Origin: a virus | Virus record (IMG/VR): IMGVR_UViG_3300032083_001599 | Coordinates: 1-64,000 of that record | DNA: 64,000 nt | Strand: one strand, 5' to 3' | Shown here: in pieces, positions 42,678-59,789 of the stretch | Layout: each line of letters begins with the position of its first letter | Position numbering within the stretch: the first letter of the stretch is position 1 | Notes under the pieces: model-generated | The model's input: the letters and a program-made list of their open reading frames with translations, nothing else | What the model was told of the DNA's origin: nothing | Database searches by the model: none | Program-made: the position numbers and the translations under genes

Positions 42678-42968
42678 ATGGAATCAAATCCAAAGAAGAA
42701 AGAGGAAGCCAAAAAGGAAAATAAATTTGAGTGGGCGGATGAGGGTGTATCAACTCTCGTCCGAGTTATTATTCTTGGATGGTCAGCAGCAATTCTGACT
42801 CTTAATTATGTAACTGTTCCTGGCATTCCTCAAAAAAACATCGATCCGACTTTTATAGCCAGCGTGTTCACGGGAACTTTAGCGACTTTTGGTGTCGTTG
42901 CCTCGAAAAAGAAGGATGAATCAAAGCAAGCACCTACTTTAGATAAGACAGAAGATAAACCTAAATAA
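42678..42968 (+). CDS. Two-segment membrane protein, holin candidate, 96 aa
   Basis: A lysine/glutamate-rich N-terminus (about 1-23) is followed by two hydrophobic segments (TLVRVIILGWSAAILTLNYV at about 27-46 and FIASVFTGTLATFGVVA at about 59-75) and a charged C-terminus with many lysines. Size, two segments and charged ends are those of class II holins, which open the membrane at the end of infection. No endolysin gene is nearby, so the call rests on topology only. A similar small membrane protein is common after gp16 in cyanophages. Confidence 0.55.
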   Translation: MESNPKKKEEAKKENKFEWADEGVSTLVRVIILGWSAAILTLNYVTVPGIPQKNIDPTFIASVFTGTLATFGVVASKKKDESKQAPTLDKTEDKPK

Positions 42969-42996: not shown

Positions 42997-43878
42997 ATGG
43001 CACTGTCATATTCCGATATTTCTAGTTTCCTATCAGAATCAAAGAAGAAGAAACCGTCAACTACAGGAGATTTTGAATCTCCTAAAGTTGATGACTCTTC
43101 TGTAAAAATTACAGAGGGAAGTTTTACTATTGGTCCTGGACATCGTGGAGCGATGAAAGGTACTAAGATTTATAATAAAGGAAAGAGCACAACTAATCCT
43201 AATGAGAAGGATGCGTTCTTAAAGAAATCTGGAGCACAACTTCCTCCTTTAGCTCAAAAGAAACCATCAACACAAATGGCTGGTTATCAACCAGAAGGTG
43301 ATATGATTGGTGAAGTTGTTGGCGGCAAACCTGGAGACGGATATATTGGTCACCCCAATCTAGATATTAAAAACCCACTTGCTAAGAAACAAGTTAAGGG
43401 TCCCACTGGTAATAGAGGACTTGCTGGCAAACTTGGTGATAGAAAGATGAGGATTGATAAGATGACCAATCAAATGCTCAATCAATCTGTCGAGCCAGAA
43501 GGTAAGTTAATTGAAGAGACAGATATGAGATTCTGTCCTAAGTGTGAGAAGATGGAAGCTAGAGAAGAGTGTGCTTATGGTCCCGACTATTGGGACACAT
43601 TTGCTATTAAAAATATCTCTAAGAAAGTAGAGGAAGGTGCTGCATGGACTCGCAAAGAAGGACAGAATCCTGAGGGTGGACTCAATGAGAAGGGACGAAA
43701 GTCTGCCAAAGCAGATGGACATAACTTAAAACGACCATCTAAAGTGAAGGGTAATAAGAGAAGAGCATCATTCTGTGCAAGGATGAAAGGCATGAAGAAA
43801 AAACTCACTTCTGCTGAGACAGCAAGAGATCCTGATAGCAGAATCAACAAATCACTTAGAGCTTGGGACTGTAACTAA
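42997..43878 (+). CDS. Probable internal virion protein with capsid-targeting-like N-terminus, 293 aa
   Basis: The N-terminus MALSYSDISSFLSESKKKKP contains F-L-S-E, the same element as in the next gene and like the F-I-A-E that ends T4 capsid-targeting sequences cut by protease gp21. The middle is basic and low in hydrophobic residues. The C-terminus has a zinc-ribbon-like C-P-K-C-E (with further C at 'EECAYG') and then GAAWTRKEGQNPEGGLNEKG ... RRASFCARMKGMKKKLT ... DSRINKSLRAWDC, a domain (DUF6321-type) I know from cyanophages. The high K/R content suits DNA contact inside the head. Function unknown; the encapsidation idea is inference. Confidence 0.6.
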   Translation: MALSYSDISSFLSESKKKKPSTTGDFESPKVDDSSVKITEGSFTIGPGHRGAMKGTKIYNKGKSTTNPNEKDAFLKKSGAQLPPLAQKKPSTQMAGYQPEGDMIGEVVGGKPGDGYIGHPNLDIKNPLAKKQVKGPTGNRGLAGKLGDRKMRIDKMTNQMLNQSVEPEGKLIEETDMRFCPKCEKMEAREECAYGPDYWDTFAIKNISKKVEEGAAWTRKEGQNPEGGLNEKGRKSAKADGHNLKRPSKVKGNKRRASFCARMKGMKKKLTSAETARDPDSRINKSLRAWDCN

Positions 43879-44186
43879 TGAAAAACTTTAAAGAATTTTT
43901 GTCGGAAAGCAAAATTACAATTACTATTGATACTGATGATATTGAGACTCCCAAAAATGAAGAGTTCGGTGCTGATGTAGTTTGGGAAGGTAAGCTCTAT
44001 CGTATGGATTTATCTACTGTTAGAGATTCTCTTCCAACAGAAAAAGAATTATCCGAACAGTTACAAAAGGAATATCCTGGAGCTATGGTCCAGAAAATAT
44101 ATCCAGTTTCTGAAGAAAAATCTGACATTACTGTCGTTAATAAAAAAAGATTTAACCCAGCTATGCAATCATGGGTTGAAGATTAA
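43878..44186 (+). CDS. Small protein with capsid-targeting-like N-terminus, 102 aa
   Basis: MKNFKEFLSESKITITIDTD closely parallels the T4 internal-protein leader MKTYQEFIAEA: M-K-x-[FY]-x-E-F-[LI]-x-E. Protease gp21 cuts after such (L/I)-x-E sites. The remaining 90 residues are acidic and end RFNPAMQSWVED. The gene overlaps the preceding candidate internal-protein gene by 1 nt (TAATG), so the two likely act together. Role after packaging or injection is unknown. Confidence 0.6.
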   Translation: MKNFKEFLSESKITITIDTDDIETPKNEEFGADVVWEGKLYRMDLSTVRDSLPTEKELSEQLQKEYPGAMVQKIYPVSEEKSDITVVNKKRFNPAMQSWVED

Positions 44187-44188
44187 TC

Positions 44189-45466
44189 ATGGCACAGTGG
44201 AATAAGAATACACAGGACTTTCTCAATCAAGAAAGAACCCTTTTTGAAGTATATAATATTGCTGATCACTGGGGAAACCAGACAGATTGGAGACCTCAGT
44301 TTTCTAATAACAATAGATTAAAGGTTTCTCCATATCAAACAGTCTTCTTCAATACCTTCCAGTACGGCAAAGAAACTGATGTATGGGATGAAAGATTAGT
44401 CGGAGTCGGTGCAACTGCTACCTTTAATGCATCATCCAGTAATGTAGTAATGGAAGTTGGTTCTGCTGCTGGTAGTAGTGTAGTTCGTCAGACTAAGAAT
44501 GTAATGAGATACATTCCTGGTAGAAGTGCTACTCTTGCCTTTTCAATTCGTCTTGATACTCCACAAGTCGGTATTCGTAGAAGGTTTGGATTGTTTGATG
44601 ATAATAATGGTGCTTATTTTGAGGATAATGGTGGAACTTATGCTTATGTAATTCGTAGTAATACGACAGGTATTGTTACTGAAAGAAGAGTATACAGAGA
44701 CGATTGGAACGGTGAGAAGTTTGATGGTAATGGATATAGTGGTGTAACTGCTGATCCAACAAAACAGCAGATGATTTCCATCAACTATGAGTGGTATGGT
44801 GCTGGTCTTGTAGAGTTTGCATGGTTAATGAAAAATGAGACAATTCCGTCTCATACATTTGAGAACTCAAATACTTTGGATACTGTTTGGTGTTCCACTC
44901 CGTTCCTTCCCATTCGTGTTGAGATTGAAAATATAACTGGTGTTGCTGGAACTCATTACCTGTATCAAGGATCTAACTCTCTAATTCAAGAAGGTGAACC
45001 AGAGAAACTTGGTATTCTTGAAAGTATTGCTAATCCTATTACTGGCACTACACTGGCAGCTGCAAATACATTTTATCCAGTCGTAAGTCTCAGATTAAAA
45101 GAGGATCAATTGGGTGCTGTTGCTCTGATTAGATCTCTACAAGCAGTAACGAATGATAATACTAATGTCTATTGGAGATTGATTGAGAACCCAACATTAA
45201 CTGGTGCAAATTGGACAGATGGTTCAAATCCAAACTCCTTTATGCAATACGACACAAGTGCTACTGCTACAGCTGGTGGAAATATTGTCCTGAGTGGATT
45301 TACGATTTCTGGTGGTTCTTCTCTTGTAGAAGTTGATGATAAGGCAGCACTACAAATCGGTAGAACTGGTATTGGAACGATAAGTGATATATACACTTTA
45401 GCATGTGCTTCACCTAATACTAACAAGAAAGCACTCGCAGTATTAAACTGGATTGAACAAAGGTAA
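44189..45466 (+). CDS. Virion structural protein of unknown place, 425 aa
   Basis: The N-terminus MAQWNKNTQDFLNQERTLFE, then V-Y-N-I-A-D-H-W-G-N, followed by NNRLKVSPYQTVFFNTFQYG, is a recurring cyanophage structural-protein pattern. The chain is beta-rich with lectin-like features (RSATLAFSIRLDTPQVGIRR; YFEDNGGTYAYVIRSNTTGI; WNGEKFDGNGYSG), reminiscent of a concanavalin-type sandwich that could bind sugars. It stands in 'aatcATG' context 2 nt after the upstream stop. It may be a head or tail decoration/adhesion protein; no evidence decides. Confidence 0.65.
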   Translation: MAQWNKNTQDFLNQERTLFEVYNIADHWGNQTDWRPQFSNNNRLKVSPYQTVFFNTFQYGKETDVWDERLVGVGATATFNASSSNVVMEVGSAAGSSVVRQTKNVMRYIPGRSATLAFSIRLDTPQVGIRRRFGLFDDNNGAYFEDNGGTYAYVIRSNTTGIVTERRVYRDDWNGEKFDGNGYSGVTADPTKQQMISINYEWYGAGLVEFAWLMKNETIPSHTFENSNTLDTVWCSTPFLPIRVEIENITGVAGTHYLYQGSNSLIQEGEPEKLGILESIANPITGTTLAAANTFYPVVSLRLKEDQLGAVALIRSLQAVTNDNTNVYWRLIENPTLTGANWTDGSNPNSFMQYDTSATATAGGNIVLSGFTISGGSSLVEVDDKAALQIGRTGIGTISDIYTLACASPNTNKKALAVLNWIEQR

Positions 45467-46109: not shown

Positions 46110-46433
46110 ATGAGAGCTATTTGTTTCTTTCTAGTTACATTCTTTTTTGCTATTCCTGCATGGGCAGTTGATGTCTCAATGGGTGCTGGTGGTAATCTAG
46201 TATTTGAACCGAATGAGATCACAATCTCTGCAGGTGACACAGTTCATTTTGTTAATGAGGCTCTACCTCCTCATAACATTATTGTTGAAGGTCGTGCAGA
46301 TCTTTCAAGAGAAGCACTACTGTTTGCTCCTGGCGAATCACAAGATGTTGTATTTGCTGATAAAGGTGACTATAATTATTTCTGTGGTCCTCACCAAGGT
46401 GCAGGCATGACAGGCGTAATTCATGTGGAGTAA
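46110..46433 (+). CDS. petE: Plastocyanin
   Basis: A 107-aa cupredoxin with a clear signal peptide (residues 1-19, F-F-L-V-T-F-F-F-A-I-P-A-W-A, cut after AWA), so the protein goes to the thylakoid lumen. The full set of copper ligands is present: H55 (LPPHN), C92, H95 and M100 (FCGPHQGAGM). The mature size of about 88 residues is slightly shorter than host plastocyanin (about 97-99). It carries electrons from cytochrome b6f to photosystem I and is a known auxiliary metabolic gene of cyanophages. Its stop (46431-46433) directly abuts the next ATG (46434), suggesting co-translation with a small membrane protein. Confidence 0.93.
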   Translation: MRAICFFLVTFFFAIPAWAVDVSMGAGGNLVFEPNEITISAGDTVHFVNEALPPHNIIVEGRADLSREALLFAPGESQDVVFADKGDYNYFCGPHQGAGMTGVIHVE

Positions 46434-47145: not shown

Positions 47146-48093
47146 GTGATGAATAGGTATCAAAAAGCAATACAATACACAAAACCACTTGTTAAAATTG
47201 ATGAGAAGATTGCTTTTCTTAAAGAGAAGATGGTAACAGCCGGTATGTATTCTGTAGTGGATACATCCCCCGAAGTGCTTGAGGTTGGACCAACATTTGA
47301 GCCAGCACCTCTTGGTGATTTTTCTGACCTAAGTTCTTTTGTATGGGATAGTGCAGCTCAAGGAGATGGTACTCCGGGTGTTCTTCCAAATCTTAGTCAA
47401 TTGCAGACTACAGATATTAATGGGGTTACCCAACCTAGATTAGAAATGCCTCAAATTGAAACCAGTGACGGCAGTAAGTATATTGGAACACCATATGCTA
47501 TGGCATTTTCTGGTAGTATGGCATTGACTGGAACTTCTCTTGGGTATATTAATGAGAATGGGTATAACCATGTATATCAATTGAGTAATGTTTTTGGTGT
47601 AAGTTATAATGAGTTTGCTAGAAAATTTGCTCAAGCTTACACAGAAGGAAATTTTACACAAAAAACAATTTACATGTGGTCGGGTATAGATTGTTTGCTT
47701 GGTCAGTGCAGAGGGGGTGCCGCATATTACCCACCTGGTACAAGTAATGTTGCACCCCATGCATCAAGAGTTTTATATCCGTATACATTATTGATTCCAG
47801 TTGATGGGAGTGGGATTCCCAAAGGAAATCCAGTAATGACTGATGTAGGTGTAAGATCACAATCAAAAAGAGTCGCTTCGGTTATAAGTCGGGATGGTAT
47901 TGGCGATCCAAATTATTATCCAGGACCAATCGCTATGGGTCCTGATACTCTTTGGGAAATGATTAATGAATATAAAAGTCCAGCAACTCCTGCTTACATG
48001 AAGCAAAACATTATAAAGGGATTAAGTGACTGGGCTAAACCTGGATCTAATAATCGTCGCAAACTTCAAGGTTTAGGACTTCCGCTAGTTTAA
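47146..48093 (+). CDS. Hypothetical protein, 315 aa
   Basis: The product begins MMNRYQKAIQYTKPLVKIDE. Residues about 45-100 are proline- and acid-rich; the centre (KYIGTPYAMAFSGSMALTGT; NVFGVSYNEFARKFAQAYTE; MWSGIDCLLGQCRGGAAYYP) looks like a folded domain with a C-x4-C pair; the C-terminus is basic (NNRRKLQGLGLPLV). The text resembles virion proteins more than enzymes. I do not recognise a family. It lies in the variable island, next to another unrecognised gene. Confidence 0.6.
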   Translation: MMNRYQKAIQYTKPLVKIDEKIAFLKEKMVTAGMYSVVDTSPEVLEVGPTFEPAPLGDFSDLSSFVWDSAAQGDGTPGVLPNLSQLQTTDINGVTQPRLEMPQIETSDGSKYIGTPYAMAFSGSMALTGTSLGYINENGYNHVYQLSNVFGVSYNEFARKFAQAYTEGNFTQKTIYMWSGIDCLLGQCRGGAAYYPPGTSNVAPHASRVLYPYTLLIPVDGSGIPKGNPVMTDVGVRSQSKRVASVISRDGIGDPNYYPGPIAMGPDTLWEMINEYKSPATPAYMKQNIIKGLSDWAKPGSNNRRKLQGLGLPLV

Positions 48094-56564: not shown

Positions 56565-57215
56565 ATGAAACTGATCACGGAAGAAATCGAACAGGTCGAA
56601 CTTATCGTTGAAGAACGCAACGGTAAGAAATCTATGTTCATCGAAGGAGTATTCCTTCAGGGAGACATTCAGAACCGAAATGGTCGGATGTATCCTATGG
56701 ATACTCTTCGCAGAGAAGTATGTCGTTACAACGAAAGTTTTGTCAGCAAAGGCAGAGCTCTTGGTGAACTCGGTCATCCCGAAGGACCTACTCTCAACCT
56801 GGATCGAGTATCTCATAAAATTACATCTCTCAGAGAAGAGGGAACTAATTTTATAGGTAAAGCTAAAATTCTCAATACCCCCATGGGTAAGATCGCACAA
56901 AATCTTATCGATGAAGGTGTAAAGTTGGGTGTTTCTTCCCGTGGACTTGGAACTTTAGCGGTAAATGAGAATGGTATTAAAGTCGTCTCAAACGATTTTA
57001 TGCTTGCAACTGCTGCAGATATTGTAGCAGATCCATCCGCACCTGATGCATTTGTATCAGGAATTATGGAAGGAAAAGACTGGGTAATGGATGGTGGAAT
57101 CGTCAGAGAAAGGCTTGTAGAGAAGACCTACAAGCAAATTAATACCTTGGTCGATCAAAAAGCACTTGAAGAAAACAAGTTGGCACTGTTCAATAATTTC
57201 CTGTCAAGTCTCTAA
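56565..57215 (+). CDS. gp21: Prohead maturation protease gp21
   Basis: The 216-aa product is close to T4 gp21 (212 aa). Catalytic candidates are H71 in GELGHPEGPT, S124/S125 in LGVSSRGLG, and D156 in IVADPSAPDAFV, the pattern of assemblin-type serine proteases. It cuts scaffold gp22/gp67, capsid protein gp23 and internal proteins after (L/I)-x-E. It lies between the core genes and gp22, as in T4. Confidence 0.94.
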   Translation: MKLITEEIEQVELIVEERNGKKSMFIEGVFLQGDIQNRNGRMYPMDTLRREVCRYNESFVSKGRALGELGHPEGPTLNLDRVSHKITSLREEGTNFIGKAKILNTPMGKIAQNLIDEGVKLGVSSRGLGTLAVNENGIKVVSNDFMLATAADIVADPSAPDAFVSGIMEGKDWVMDGGIVRERLVEKTYKQINTLVDQKALEENKLALFNNFLSSL

Positions 57216-57266: not shown

Positions 57267-58313
57267 ATGTCCGCTAAGGAATTACAAGAAATGGAAAATC
57301 CCGTAACAAGGGGTGCGAAAGGAGCTGAGGCTATGCCTAAGCTTTCTGATCCTGGAACTGGTTTGGCTGCTGTTCAAGATCTTGGTGGGCCTACCCCCGA
57401 GAACTACAAAGCCGACGATGATTCCGCGAAACTCGCAGAACCCAAAGTTAAAACTGTCAAAGATGTCGTAAATCGTGGCGCTAAAGCTGCTGAACCGATG
57501 CAAAGTCTTTCTGCTGGCGATACCGTCGAAGCAGAAGGCGAGCAAGAAGTTGTAGCTGAAGATGAGACCACGCAAGAGGAGGTAACTCCTTCTGTTGATA
57601 TCGAAGAAGATCTTTCTGCCCTTTTTGGTGGCGAAGAACTTTCCGAAGAATTTCAATTAAAAGCTCGCACAATCTTTGAGGCTGTAGTTACTGCTAAAGT
57701 AACTGAAGTCCAAGAAGAGATGGCTGCACAATACGAAGAGCAACTTACTGAACATCTTGAGACTGTAAAGTCTGAACTTGTAGAGCGCGTTGATGCATAC
57801 CTTGAGTATGTTTCAGAAGAGTGGATCTCCGAGAACAAGATCGAAGTAGAGCACGGTCTTAAGACCGAAATGACTGAATCATTCCTTTCTGGAATGAAGG
57901 GTCTATTTGAAGATCATTATGTAACAATTGCTGACGACAAATACGATGTCCTGGAGAGTATGGTCTCCAAACTTGATGAAATGGAAGGCAGACTTAACGA
58001 ACAGATCGAAGCTAACATTTCTCTTAACAAGCGCCTTGGCGAATCTACAGCTGATGGAATTTTCCGTGAAGTAACCGAGGGTCTTGCTGTAACACAAAGA
58101 GAGAAATTAGTCGCATTGTCTGAAGGTGTTGAGTTTGAGGGTGAAGAATCTTATCGTGAGAAGCTGGTTACACTGAAGGAATCTTATTTCCCCAGTGAGC
58201 AAAAACTTTCTTCTAACAAAGTGGAAACACTTTCTGAGGGCGTAACCTCAGAGACTGGTGTTGAGGCATCTGCTTCAATGACCCAGTACTTGAAAGCCCT
58301 TGGGATGAAGTAA
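57267..58313 (+). CDS. gp22: Prohead scaffold protein gp22
   Basis: The 348-aa product (T4 gp22 269 aa) is almost wholly helical and acidic: LSEEFQLKARTIFEAVVTAK (about 125-144), a long E/Q/V-rich coiled coil (about 145-260), and a C-terminus ending VEASASMTQYLKALGMK. F-Q-L-K-A-R-T-I-F-E-A-A/V is a strong gp22 signature. The N-terminal third repeats R-G-A-K-x-A-E-x-M-x-x-L-S twice (about 13-26 and 70-83). It builds the inner core on which gp23 assembles and is cut to peptides by gp21. Confidence 0.93.
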   Translation: MSAKELQEMENPVTRGAKGAEAMPKLSDPGTGLAAVQDLGGPTPENYKADDDSAKLAEPKVKTVKDVVNRGAKAAEPMQSLSAGDTVEAEGEQEVVAEDETTQEEVTPSVDIEEDLSALFGGEELSEEFQLKARTIFEAVVTAKVTEVQEEMAAQYEEQLTEHLETVKSELVERVDAYLEYVSEEWISENKIEVEHGLKTEMTESFLSGMKGLFEDHYVTIADDKYDVLESMVSKLDEMEGRLNEQIEANISLNKRLGESTADGIFREVTEGLAVTQREKLVALSEGVEFEGEESYREKLVTLKESYFPSEQKLSSNKVETLSEGVTSETGVEASASMTQYLKALGMK

Positions 58314-58343: not shown

Positions 58344-59789
58344 ATGTACAATCAAGAATCATTAATGGAGAAGTGGGGTCCACTTCTCGACGCCGATGGA
58401 GTTGATCCTATTAAGGACTCACATCGCCGTGCTACAACTGCTGTTCTCCTTGAGAACCAAGAGCGTTTCCTCAAAGAGCAATCTGCTTTTGAAAGCGGCA
58501 ACGGTATGCTCTCAGAAGCTGCTCCTACTAACAGCGGCAACGCTGTAGGTGCTTCTGGTGCTTTCAGTGGCGGTTCTGCTGCTGCTGGTCCTACCGCCGG
58601 TTTCGATCCCGTTCTGATCAGCCTGATTCGCCGCTCGATGCCGAATCTGGTTGCTTATGAACTCGCTGGCGTTCAGCCGATGAACGGTCCTACCGGACTG
58701 ATCTTCGCAATGCGTTCACGCTACACCAATCAAGCTGGTACTGAGTCGTTCTTCGACGAGCCCGATTCCGCATTCTCTGCGAACAAGGCAGGCACCAACA
58801 TCGGTCAAGCAACCCAAGGTGATTACACCGCTGCTACCGATGACGACGGCACCGTTGGTTTCGGTTCTACTGGTACTCAGCGTGGTACTAACCCCGCTAT
58901 CCTGGAAGGCACTGCTTCCGACGCTGTACAAGCTCAGTATTCACTGGGTCAAGGTATGGCAACTGGCGACTCTGAGGCACTCGGAGACGGCAGCAATGGC
59001 GATTTCAACGAGATGGCATTCTCGATCGAGAAAGTCACGGTCACCGCTAAGTCCCGTGCTCTGAAAGCAGAGTACAGCATGGAATTGGCACAAGACCTTC
59101 GTGCTATCCACGGTCTTAACGCTGAAGCAGAACTCGCTAACATCCTGTCTAGCGAAATCCTTGCTGAAATCAACCGCGAAGTTATTCGTACCATCTATAA
59201 GACTGCTGAAGCTGGTTCACAGGCAAATGTTGCCAACGCTGGTTTCTTTGACCTCGATGTTGACTCCAACGGTCGTTGGTCAGTTGAGAAGTTCAAAGGT
59301 CTTCTGTTTAACATCGAAAGAGATGCTAACAGAATCGCCCAAAGAACTCGTAGAGGGAAGGGTAACATCATCATGACATCTGCTGATGTTGCTTCCGCTC
59401 TGACGATGGCTGGTGTACTTGATTACACCCCTGCTCTTAACGCTAACCTTCAGGTTGACGACACCGGCAACACCTTCGCTGGTACTATCAACGGTAAGTA
59501 CAGAGTCTACATCGACCCCTTCGCTGCTAACTCTGCCGCTAACCAGTACTATGTTGTTGGTTATAAGGGTACTAGCCCTTATGATGCTGGTCTCTTCTAC
59601 TGTCCTTATGTTCCCCTCCAGATGGTTCGCGCCGTTGGTGAGAACAGCTTCCAGCCCAAAATTGGCTTCAAGACCCGTTATGGTCTTGTCTCCAACCCTT
59701 ACGCTGAAGGCACCACTCAAGGTTTGGGTCGTATCACCTCTAACAGCAACCGCTACTACCAGCGTACTGTTGTTAAGAACCTCATGTGA
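58344..59789 (+). CDS. gp23: Major capsid protein gp23
   Basis: The 481-aa product (T4 gp23 521 aa) shows P-V-L-I-S-L-I-R-R-S-M-P-N-L-V-A-Y-E (about 89-106), G-V-Q-P-M-N-G-P-T-G-L-I-F-A-M-R-S-R-Y (about 109-127) and ...SRALKAEYSMELAQDLRAIH. A protease site L-S-E (56-58) precedes AAPTNSG, so the mature protein likely starts at residue 59. Third codon positions are C-rich compared with neighbours, as expected for the most abundant protein. The leader lacks a clear Shine-Dalgarno and a late octamer; it may be co-transcribed with gp22. Terminator 1 follows 24 nt after the stop. Confidence 0.97.
   Translation: MYNQESLMEKWGPLLDADGVDPIKDSHRRATTAVLLENQERFLKEQSAFESGNGMLSEAAPTNSGNAVGASGAFSGGSAAAGPTAGFDPVLISLIRRSMPNLVAYELAGVQPMNGPTGLIFAMRSRYTNQAGTESFFDEPDSAFSANKAGTNIGQATQGDYTAATDDDGTVGFGSTGTQRGTNPAILEGTASDAVQAQYSLGQGMATGDSEALGDGSNGDFNEMAFSIEKVTVTAKSRALKAEYSMELAQDLRAIHGLNAEAELANILSSEILAEINREVIRTIYKTAEAGSQANVANAGFFDLDVDSNGRWSVEKFKGLLFNIERDANRIAQRTRRGKGNIIMTSADVASALTMAGVLDYTPALNANLQVDDTGNTFAGTINGKYRVYIDPFAANSAANQYYVVGYKGTSPYDAGLFYCPYVPLQMVRAVGENSFQPKIGFKTRYGLVSNPYAEGTTQGLGRITSNSNRYYQRTVVKNLM

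Follow-up and report, generated by a model that had tools for sequence, protein, structure and literature searches.

Do two abutting genes of a T4-like cyanophage, whose products both carry the residues FLSE near the N-terminus, encode proteins that are tagged for packaging into the phage head? The genes in question, gene A (42997..43878, + strand) and gene B (43878..44186, + strand), lie in the virus record IMGVR_UViG_3300032083_001599 (92,192 bases), of which the first 64,000 nucleotides constitute the window analysed here. An earlier sequence-only reading had singled out the pair, which is present and abutting, and had proposed that both N-termini are T4-type capsid-targeting sequences (CTSs) cut by the prohead protease gp21. 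The T4 CTS is known from a few coliphage proteins. It is likely that gene B, and probably gene A as well, encodes the precursor of an internal head protein; for gene B considered by itself, this is the most likely assignment. The breadth of the leader is more interesting than the putative membership of A and B among CTS-bearing head proteins.

The leader of gene B and the head-assembly proteins

The T4 CTS was the subject of work by Mullaney and Black in 1996, as summarized in the passages of a T4 review used here (PMC9026906). According to the same passages, amber-suppressor studies of IPIII assign leader residues 4 and 7 to targeting and residues 8 and 10 to processing, and gp21 cuts after L/I-x-E. 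Gene B encodes a protein of 102 amino acids (aa) that starts with MKNFKEFLSES and belongs to the phrog_1742 family, the profile of which matches from residue 1 (residues 1-93, E 1.4e-21). Its first ten residues, MKNFKEFLSE (43878..43907, + strand), agree with the T4 CTS at positions 4, 7, 8, and 10 and constitute a predicted capsid-targeting leader, with a predicted gp21 cut after E10 and before S11. The parallel to T4 drawn in the sequence-only reading is borne out, the same pattern also finding the T4 genes ipII and ipIII. The gene B protein holds a single [LI]-x-E-[ASG] site.

The gene B leader is far beyond chance. Its DNA pattern, ATGAARNNNTWYNNNNNNTTYHTNNNNGAR (M-K-x-[FY]-x-x-F-[LIMF]-x-E), has a single match in the window, at the start of gene B, against a mean of 0.00 in 100 shuffles. 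The full record harbors two matches and none for the backwards pattern; the second match, MKNFFQFLNEA, opens a cytidylyltransferase/NMNAT gene of 398 aa (90214-91410) outside the window. The core [FYL]xxF[LIMF]xE is found close behind the start codon in gene B alone among the window open reading frames (ORFs) of at least 60 aa.

Relatives of gene B from IMG/VR (the best 80 of 103 loci) comprise 56 distinct proteins, one of which is truncated by the contig end. The leader M-K-x-[FY]-x-x-F-[LIM]-x-E is present in all 55 with an intact start, one being the window's own protein, a figure weakened by the leader itself having been among the six peptide patterns used to retrieve them. A tblastn search of named phages, in which no leader peptide was used, locates gene B in 137 of 50,697 phage records, all of them cyanophage, and 135 of the 137 match at least 80% of the gene. 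In an alignment of 30 gene B proteins, the mean column entropy is 0.59 bits over residues 1-11, 1.47 over residues 12-30, and 0.88-1.17 over the core, such that the leader is the most conserved stretch of the protein. Residues 8-10 of the 55 relatives are LSE (26, as in the window), ISE (21), MSE (6), LKE (1), or MEE (1).

Nine named genomes were searched with the leader pattern: T4, Syn9, S-SM1, P-SSM2, S-CAM9, S-SCSM1, S-PM2, P-HM1, and P-SSP7. The matches are ipII, ipIII, and 61.1 in T4, the cytidylyltransferase in Syn9 and S-SM1, the cytidylyltransferase and an 86-aa basic protein (isoelectric point, pI, 9.9) in P-SSM2, gene B in S-CAM9, and gene B together with the NMNAT in S-SCSM1. The T7-like P-SSP7 has no match, and the backwards control yields one match across the nine records. 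A relaxed pattern adds one match each in P-SSM2 and P-HM1, and a longer-spaced leader has no match in 11 records. Of note, T4 gene 61.1 (NC_000866 19130-18966, 54 aa, annotated as hypothetical) has the CTS-like start MKTFKEFIKED and may be an overlooked internal head protein.

The window phage also encodes the parts with which such a leader would have to work, namely counterparts of gp21, gp22, and gp23, the last with a matching cut site. The gp21-type prohead protease (Peptidase_S77; 56565..57215, + strand; PF03420, E 1.2e-31) is the predicted cutter, and the gp22-type scaffold (57267..58313, + strand; PF25623, E 1.2e-76), which has five [LI]-x-E-[ASG] sites, is the predicted core for leader binding. 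The major capsid protein gp23 (58344..59789, + strand; E 3.9e-146) has its own LSE-A site, NGM[LSE]AAP, at residue 58 in its N-terminal part, so the sequence-only reading was right that gp23 has the same L-S-E. By analogy with T4, the leader M-K-x-F-x-x-F-[LI]-x-E would dock the protein onto the gp22 prohead core. Upon closure of the shell, gp21 would cut after the glutamate (E10 in B, E14 in A), so that the protein is no longer held by the core. With a mature length of 92 aa (B) or 279 aa (A), it would remain in the head together with the DNA and enter the cell at the next infection.

IPII and IPIII of T4 thus have the ten-residue leader M-K-x-[FY]-x-x-F-[LI]-x-E in common with gene B, and both phages have the gp21-gp22-gp23 set. 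In contrast, the bodies differ: with the first 12 residues removed, gene B and ipII/ipIII fall into separate clusters (phmmer, E 1e-4), gene B is acidic, and serine rather than alanine follows the cut in 50 of 55 gene B relatives. For A and B themselves, docking, cutting, packaging, and ejection are inferred from the sequence. An N-terminal signal likewise directs an internal protein, DarB, into the head of phage P1; unlike the T4 leader, it has no reported consensus among the Dar proteins in the consulted part of PMC9024508, and the first nine residues are insufficient.

The leader on other proteins and in virions

The evidence leans somewhat toward the leader M-K-x-F-x-x-F-[LI]-x-E, followed after the cut by [AS], being widely used by T4-like phages of marine and fresh waters and swapped among dozens of unrelated bodies, such that a pattern search would point to a phage's injected proteins. 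A blind IMG/VR scan for M-K-x-F-x-x-F-[LIMF]-x-E-A returned at least 120 stretches, with 124 matches in those listed, as compared with 26 stretches in the whole collection for the backwards pattern. A match was called start-like when the ORF has at least 50 aa and its frame stays open over no more than 40 codons ahead of the ATG. By this measure, 112 of 113 complete frames among the matches listed are start-like; the exception is a short frame, and internal ones are absent. When compared without their first 12 residues, the 117 distinct proteins of at least 50 aa among the matches listed fall into 35 clusters (single linkage, phmmer E 1e-4). As these 35 clusters have no detectable kinship, the leader behaves as a portable tag. 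A T4-core-like neighbor, identified by comparison with S-SCSM1 proteins, is present in 93 of the 120 listed leader stretches. The leader is also matched in 27 of 39 contigs, with none for the backwards pattern, in a sample biased by the contigs having been fetched for gene B or gene A.

A control in which the glutamate is shifted by one residue counts against the head-protein assignment in that it is not a clean negative: it returned at least 120 stretches, and 96 of 105 complete frames among those listed are start-like. Among the 83 distinct start-like proteins listed for this control, 57 also have glutamate at position 10, 18 have [LIM] at position 9, and 8 have neither, which suggests that L-x-E is kept rather than that the register is free. 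The control with phenylalanine moved from position 4 to 5 gave at least 120 matches, 110 of the 120 listed also fitting the original pattern. The other 10, all complete frames, divide into six start-like, two internal, and two short, and two of the six are cytidylyltransferases with leucine at position 4.

Twenty proteins were scanned against families, comprising cluster representatives, gene B, and this record's cytidylyltransferase. The family matches include DUF6267, DUF192, GNAT, a DPBB lytic-transglycosylase domain, a weak cytidylyltransferase-like domain, and DUF6321; most of the remaining proteins of the 20 have no family match. PHROGs matches of leader carriers include cytidyltransferase, deoxyribonucleotidase-like, and RNA 2'-phosphotransferase-like families. 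If the leader is a portable tag, the bodies behind it would include NMNAT, S-adenosylmethionine (SAM) lyase, kinase, GNAT, deoxyribonucleotidase-like protein, lytic DPBB enzyme, DUF6267, DUF6321, and gene B, and gene B would be among the most widespread carriers.

Two further features of leader carriers were observed. In many NMNAT proteins, the leader is followed by a module of about 45 aa, LGLxxDGHGxWYDxxGxFVAxT, and the kinase ORF14 of cyanophage S-CREM2 (L612 10579-12846) has a similar stretch; DGHG-type sequence is found in 38 of the 117 distinct leader proteins among the matches listed and may be a second packaging element. The leader-bearing proteins of L262 (3736-4149), which matches a PHROG RNA 2'-phosphotransferase (E 7e-4), and L295 (1211-1858), which has no PHROG match, look like ADP-ribosyltransferase or phosphotransferase folds reminiscent of T4 Alt.

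Four published virion proteomes, each used in part, connect the leader to phage particles: S-CREM2, S-SCSM1, S-SM1, and S-SZBM1. The S-CREM2 comparison covers 42 of the 52 detected proteins, and its undetected set is the 139 genes of the fetched stretches. In the original ATG form, the pattern has two matches, a SAM hydrolase (MKDFDSFLEE) and a cytidylyltransferase (MKNFSSFLTEA) (2 of 42 detected versus 0 of 139 undetected, Fisher p 0.053). Allowing GTG starts adds the kinase (VKRFDAFLTE), with none for the backwards pattern; the comparison then stands at 3 detected proteins of 42 and still 0 of the 139 (p 0.012), although GTG starts and arginine at position 2 were admitted after ORF14 had been seen, so that the p value and the three of three below are partly after the fact. 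All three leader-bearing proteins were detected by mass spectrometry and are non-structural, the detection resting on the consulted part of PMC10665884. A wider core motif, set after the sequences had been seen, gives 6 of 42 versus 1 of 139 (p 0.0007), and two detected hypothetical proteins have the near forms MKDLHSFLTE and MQTFSMFFSE. Separately, a Cas9-like protein detected in the S-CREM2 virion (OR473000 7704-10313) has the leader-like LRFASFMAEA at residues 17-26, preceded by an N-terminal extension, and its annotated start may be wrong.

In the available portions of the respective papers, the NMNAT of S-SCSM1 (PMC9602691; leader MKSFLQFLKEA), the cytidylyltransferase T4-GC 190 of S-SM1 (PMC3037559; gene start MKKFSAFLNEA), and the cytidylyltransferase of S-SZBM1 (PMC9146016; the one-residue-shorter leader MRFRQFIIEA) are virion-detected as well. 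The sections consulted of the S-CREM2 paper leave open whether such proteins are packaged or are purification leftovers (PMC10665884), and those of the S-SCSM1 paper likewise leave the contamination question open (PMC9602691). With gene B, these virion-associated enzymes (cytidylyltransferase/NMNAT, SAM hydrolase, and APH/ChoK-like kinase) share the same or a close leader. They differ in that their bodies are of known kind, and in the parts consulted the authors draw no leader connection and do not exclude contamination (PMC10665884, PMC9602691, PMC9146016, PMC3037559).

The sequence-only reading had suggested a search for the leader in other cyanophage proteins, and the leader is indeed found on cytidylyltransferase/NMNAT, SAM hydrolase, and DUF6321 proteins. 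It also held that such effectors have hardly been described. The consulted portions of PMC10665884 and PMC9602691 already report virion-associated cyanophage enzymes, but no paper linking them to a capsid-targeting leader was found. In the open-licence PMC literature, a search for "capsid targeting" with "cyanophage" returned the T4 review PMC9026906 only, and none of the papers returned for "capsid targeting sequence" is on cyanophages by title. The passages returned for "cyanophage" with "internal head protein" concern T4 and PhiKZ proteins, and a word search of the accessible text of a review of T4-like cyanophages (PMC2984593) gave no "internal protein", "IPIII", "gp21", or "internal head".

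Should the leader be functional in cyanophages and in other T4-like phages of aquatic habitats, it would account for the way in which virion-found enzymes reach the head and would bear on the contamination question left by the S-CREM2 and S-SCSM1 proteome authors. It would also make part of the list of proteins delivered at the start of infection accessible to a sequence search. Specific proteins, gene B among them, become directly testable, and the leader is a candidate tag with which reporters could be brought into cyanophage heads.

Gene B in virion proteomes and its possible function

Several observations count against gene B encoding a packaged protein with a T4-type leader. The S-SCSM1 record labels the gene B homologue SSCSM1_30 (MKTFKQFMSES) as hypothetical rather than virion, and the 30 proteins in the S-SZBM1 virion table do not include SSZBM1_191 (MKSFKSFLSES), although they do include its downstream neighbor SSZBM1_190; the gene A homologue SSZBM1_192 and the neighbor 194 are also unlisted there, as far as the consulted part of that paper extends. 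The sequence following the predicted cut yields two tryptic peptides of 7-30 aa for SSCSM1_30 and six for SSZBM1_191, so that the miss of the former is easily explained and that of the latter less so; the protein is small, and both lists are shallow. Proteins as small as 61-93 aa are labelled virion in S-SCSM1, the record of which has 48 "virion protein" labels as compared with 45 in the available portion of the paper (PMC9602691), such that some of the labels may have a basis other than mass spectrometry. The strict pattern is absent from S-PM2 and P-HM1, and in T4 it recovers two of the four internal proteins that the review names (PMC9026906), missing IPI and Alt. Finally, the residue after the cut site in the 55 gene B relatives is serine in 50, alanine in 2, glycine in 2, and asparagine in 1, and the gene B protein is acidic (pI 4.7), whereas passages of that review describe the related T4 internal proteins as basic.

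The two proteomes in which gene B homologues are unlabelled or unlisted would also fit a gene B product that is not in the virion at all, its N-terminus being conserved for translation initiation or for membrane contact of a cytoplasmic protein. This is quite improbable, since a start-codon effect does not explain the invariant F7 and E10 across 55 proteins, and the same leader stands on virion-detected enzymes and T4 internal proteins. The assignment as a T4-type propeptide cut by gp21 is well supported for gene B, given the leader on virion-detected proteins of S-CREM2, S-SCSM1, and S-SM1 and on ipII/ipIII, and plausible for gene A.

The further proposal of the sequence-only reading, that A and B are injected and block host defences, found no support: the gene B homologue is unlabelled in S-SCSM1 and unlisted in S-SZBM1, and Pfam and PHROG profile searches found no known effector domain in gene A or gene B. 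Among the leader carriers, the clearest candidate for anti-restriction is the SAM hydrolase of S-CREM2, for which its authors propose such a role in the consulted part of PMC10665884.

Two AlphaFold models of gene B (mean predicted local distance difference test scores, pLDDT, of 66.5 and 69.9) have a core with a predicted strand-strand-helix-strand order (aa 28-77; 43959..44108, + strand), and this core recurs as a module within relatives of gene A. Foldseek found no PDB structure matching gene B at E <= 0.001, and VIA-align gave no row above Z 5.6. The best Foldseek match of the core is YkzG, RNA polymerase epsilon (4njc_E, E 0.18; 4njc_A, E 0.40, probability 0.87), far below significance. 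T7 Gp2 aligns to the core with Z 4.5 and a root-mean-square deviation of 2.5 over 50 of 51 residues (VIA; model mean pLDDT 69.9), likewise far below significance. It is thus very unlikely, on this faint modelled likeness to YkzG and T7 Gp2, that gene B would encode an injected regulator of host transcription. An Lsr2 dimerisation domain in gene B was also considered and was dropped at 13.9 bits as compared with a Pfam gathering value of 29.6, the Lsr2-like PHROG giving E 0.01.

Gene A and the surrounding locus

Gene A encodes a basic mosaic protein of 293 aa (start MALSYSDISSFLSES..., computed pI 9.7), the C-terminal part of which is a DUF6321 domain (43663..43866, + strand). The match to PF19846 has E 1.3e-17 and 64.6 bits as compared with a gathering cut-off of 28.5, making gene A a member of this family; no paper naming PF19846 or DUF6321 was found in the open-licence PMC literature. 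DUF6321 is found once each in six of the seven named T4-like cyanophages searched and is absent from S-PM2, T4, and P-SSP7; the S-CREM2 stretches that were fetched have no match to it. Gene A proteins are mosaics with changing N-terminal parts, and some of the proteins contain a B-like module; the gene B profile matches inside S-CAM9 gp160 (E 4e-11) and SSCSM1_29 (E 7e-6).

The N-terminus of gene A carries a possible variant leader, MALSYSDISSFLSE (42997..43038, + strand), with a possible cut after E14, which is weaker than the gene B leader. The strict pattern does not match gene A, and its ISSFLSE does not fit the core [FYL]xxF[LIMF]xE. Judged by its sequence and taken alone, the gene A leader is unremarkable. 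Relatives were drawn from the best 80 of at least 599 loci and from gene B loci, and [LIM]-x-E-[ASG] lies near the N-terminus in only 15 of the 129 distinct gene A ORFs (13 without the window's protein and a twin one residue apart), as compared with 123 of 2333 background windows of the same family (5.3%) that have it within 19 residues. A tentative alternative of some weight is therefore that gene A encodes an ordinary structural or accessory virion protein in which FLSES is a chance likeness, with the real leader on gene B only. SSCSM1_29, a gene A homologue, would agree with this alternative, as it is without such a leader, a point against a packaged gene A product, yet carries the "virion protein" label in the S-SCSM1 record.

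A chance likeness does not sit well with the variant form [ST]YS[DE]I..[FL][LV][SA]E[SAG] being kept in five other gene A relatives (L089, L091, L010, L119, and L130) despite their differing length and middle part. Nor does it sit well with other phages having a canonical leader ahead of DUF6321, which is the best, though indirect, support for gene A. Of the 128 distinct DUF6321 ORFs at the loci examined, 9 have M-[KR]-x-[FYI]-x-x-[FY]-[LIMV]-x-E before the domain, a proportion that is not a rate because eight of the nine lie in leader-scan loci and in four that leader is the scan match. Seven of the nine are of 87-105 aa and consist of leader plus domain, and one, SSZBM1_192 (MKTFKQYITEA), directly adjoins gene B. 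A further DUF6321 protein behind a canonical leader comes from the first leader scan (L292; PF19846 E 3e-27). The virion label of its homologue SSCSM1_29 also counts in favor of gene A, which is a possible CTS-bearing head protein.

Genes A and B lie in the interval that separates the small terminase gene (42046) from the large one (49403). The gene downstream of B encodes a virion structural protein (phrog_1645; 44189..45466, + strand), the homologue of which, SSZBM1_190, is in the S-SZBM1 virion table. In 60 of the 70 loci that could be tested, this structural protein gene comes after gene B, and a DUF6321 gene is the upstream abutting neighbor of gene B in 51 of 74.

Such a setting, a cassette between terS and terL and beside a virion structural protein, would also suit proteins whose leaders are true docking and cutting tags but which serve as parts for head assembly or packaging (core or DNA-organising proteins, for instance) and are left behind or lost, rather than being injected effectors. 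The gene B homologues missing from two virion proteomes would fit such a role, as would the basic gene A protein (pI 9.7), which could be a DNA-contacting core protein. According to the passages of PMC9026906, gp21 cleaves the core proteins of T4, most fragments of which exit the head. The same passages state that the short N-terminal leaders of T4 mark mature-head proteins, whereas core proteins are cut into several pieces; gene B has one site. As the other leader carriers are, in addition, enzymes found in virions, a role in assembly is rather unlikely, and an internal head protein precursor is the preferred assignment for gene B.

A small DUF6450 protein is encoded upstream of gene A (42678-42968). 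CTAAATA, a late-promoter motif, occurs at 42961-42967, just 5' of gene A, with further copies a short distance ahead of the ORFs that start at 47146, 51380, and 60203. A late promoter ahead of gene A was considered and set aside: the motif is not enriched, with 9 copies in the window as compared with 14 expected, and is thus no evidence for such a promoter. Further downstream, a 107-aa ORF (46110-46433) resembles a secreted plastocyanin-type copper protein, as judged from its sequence.

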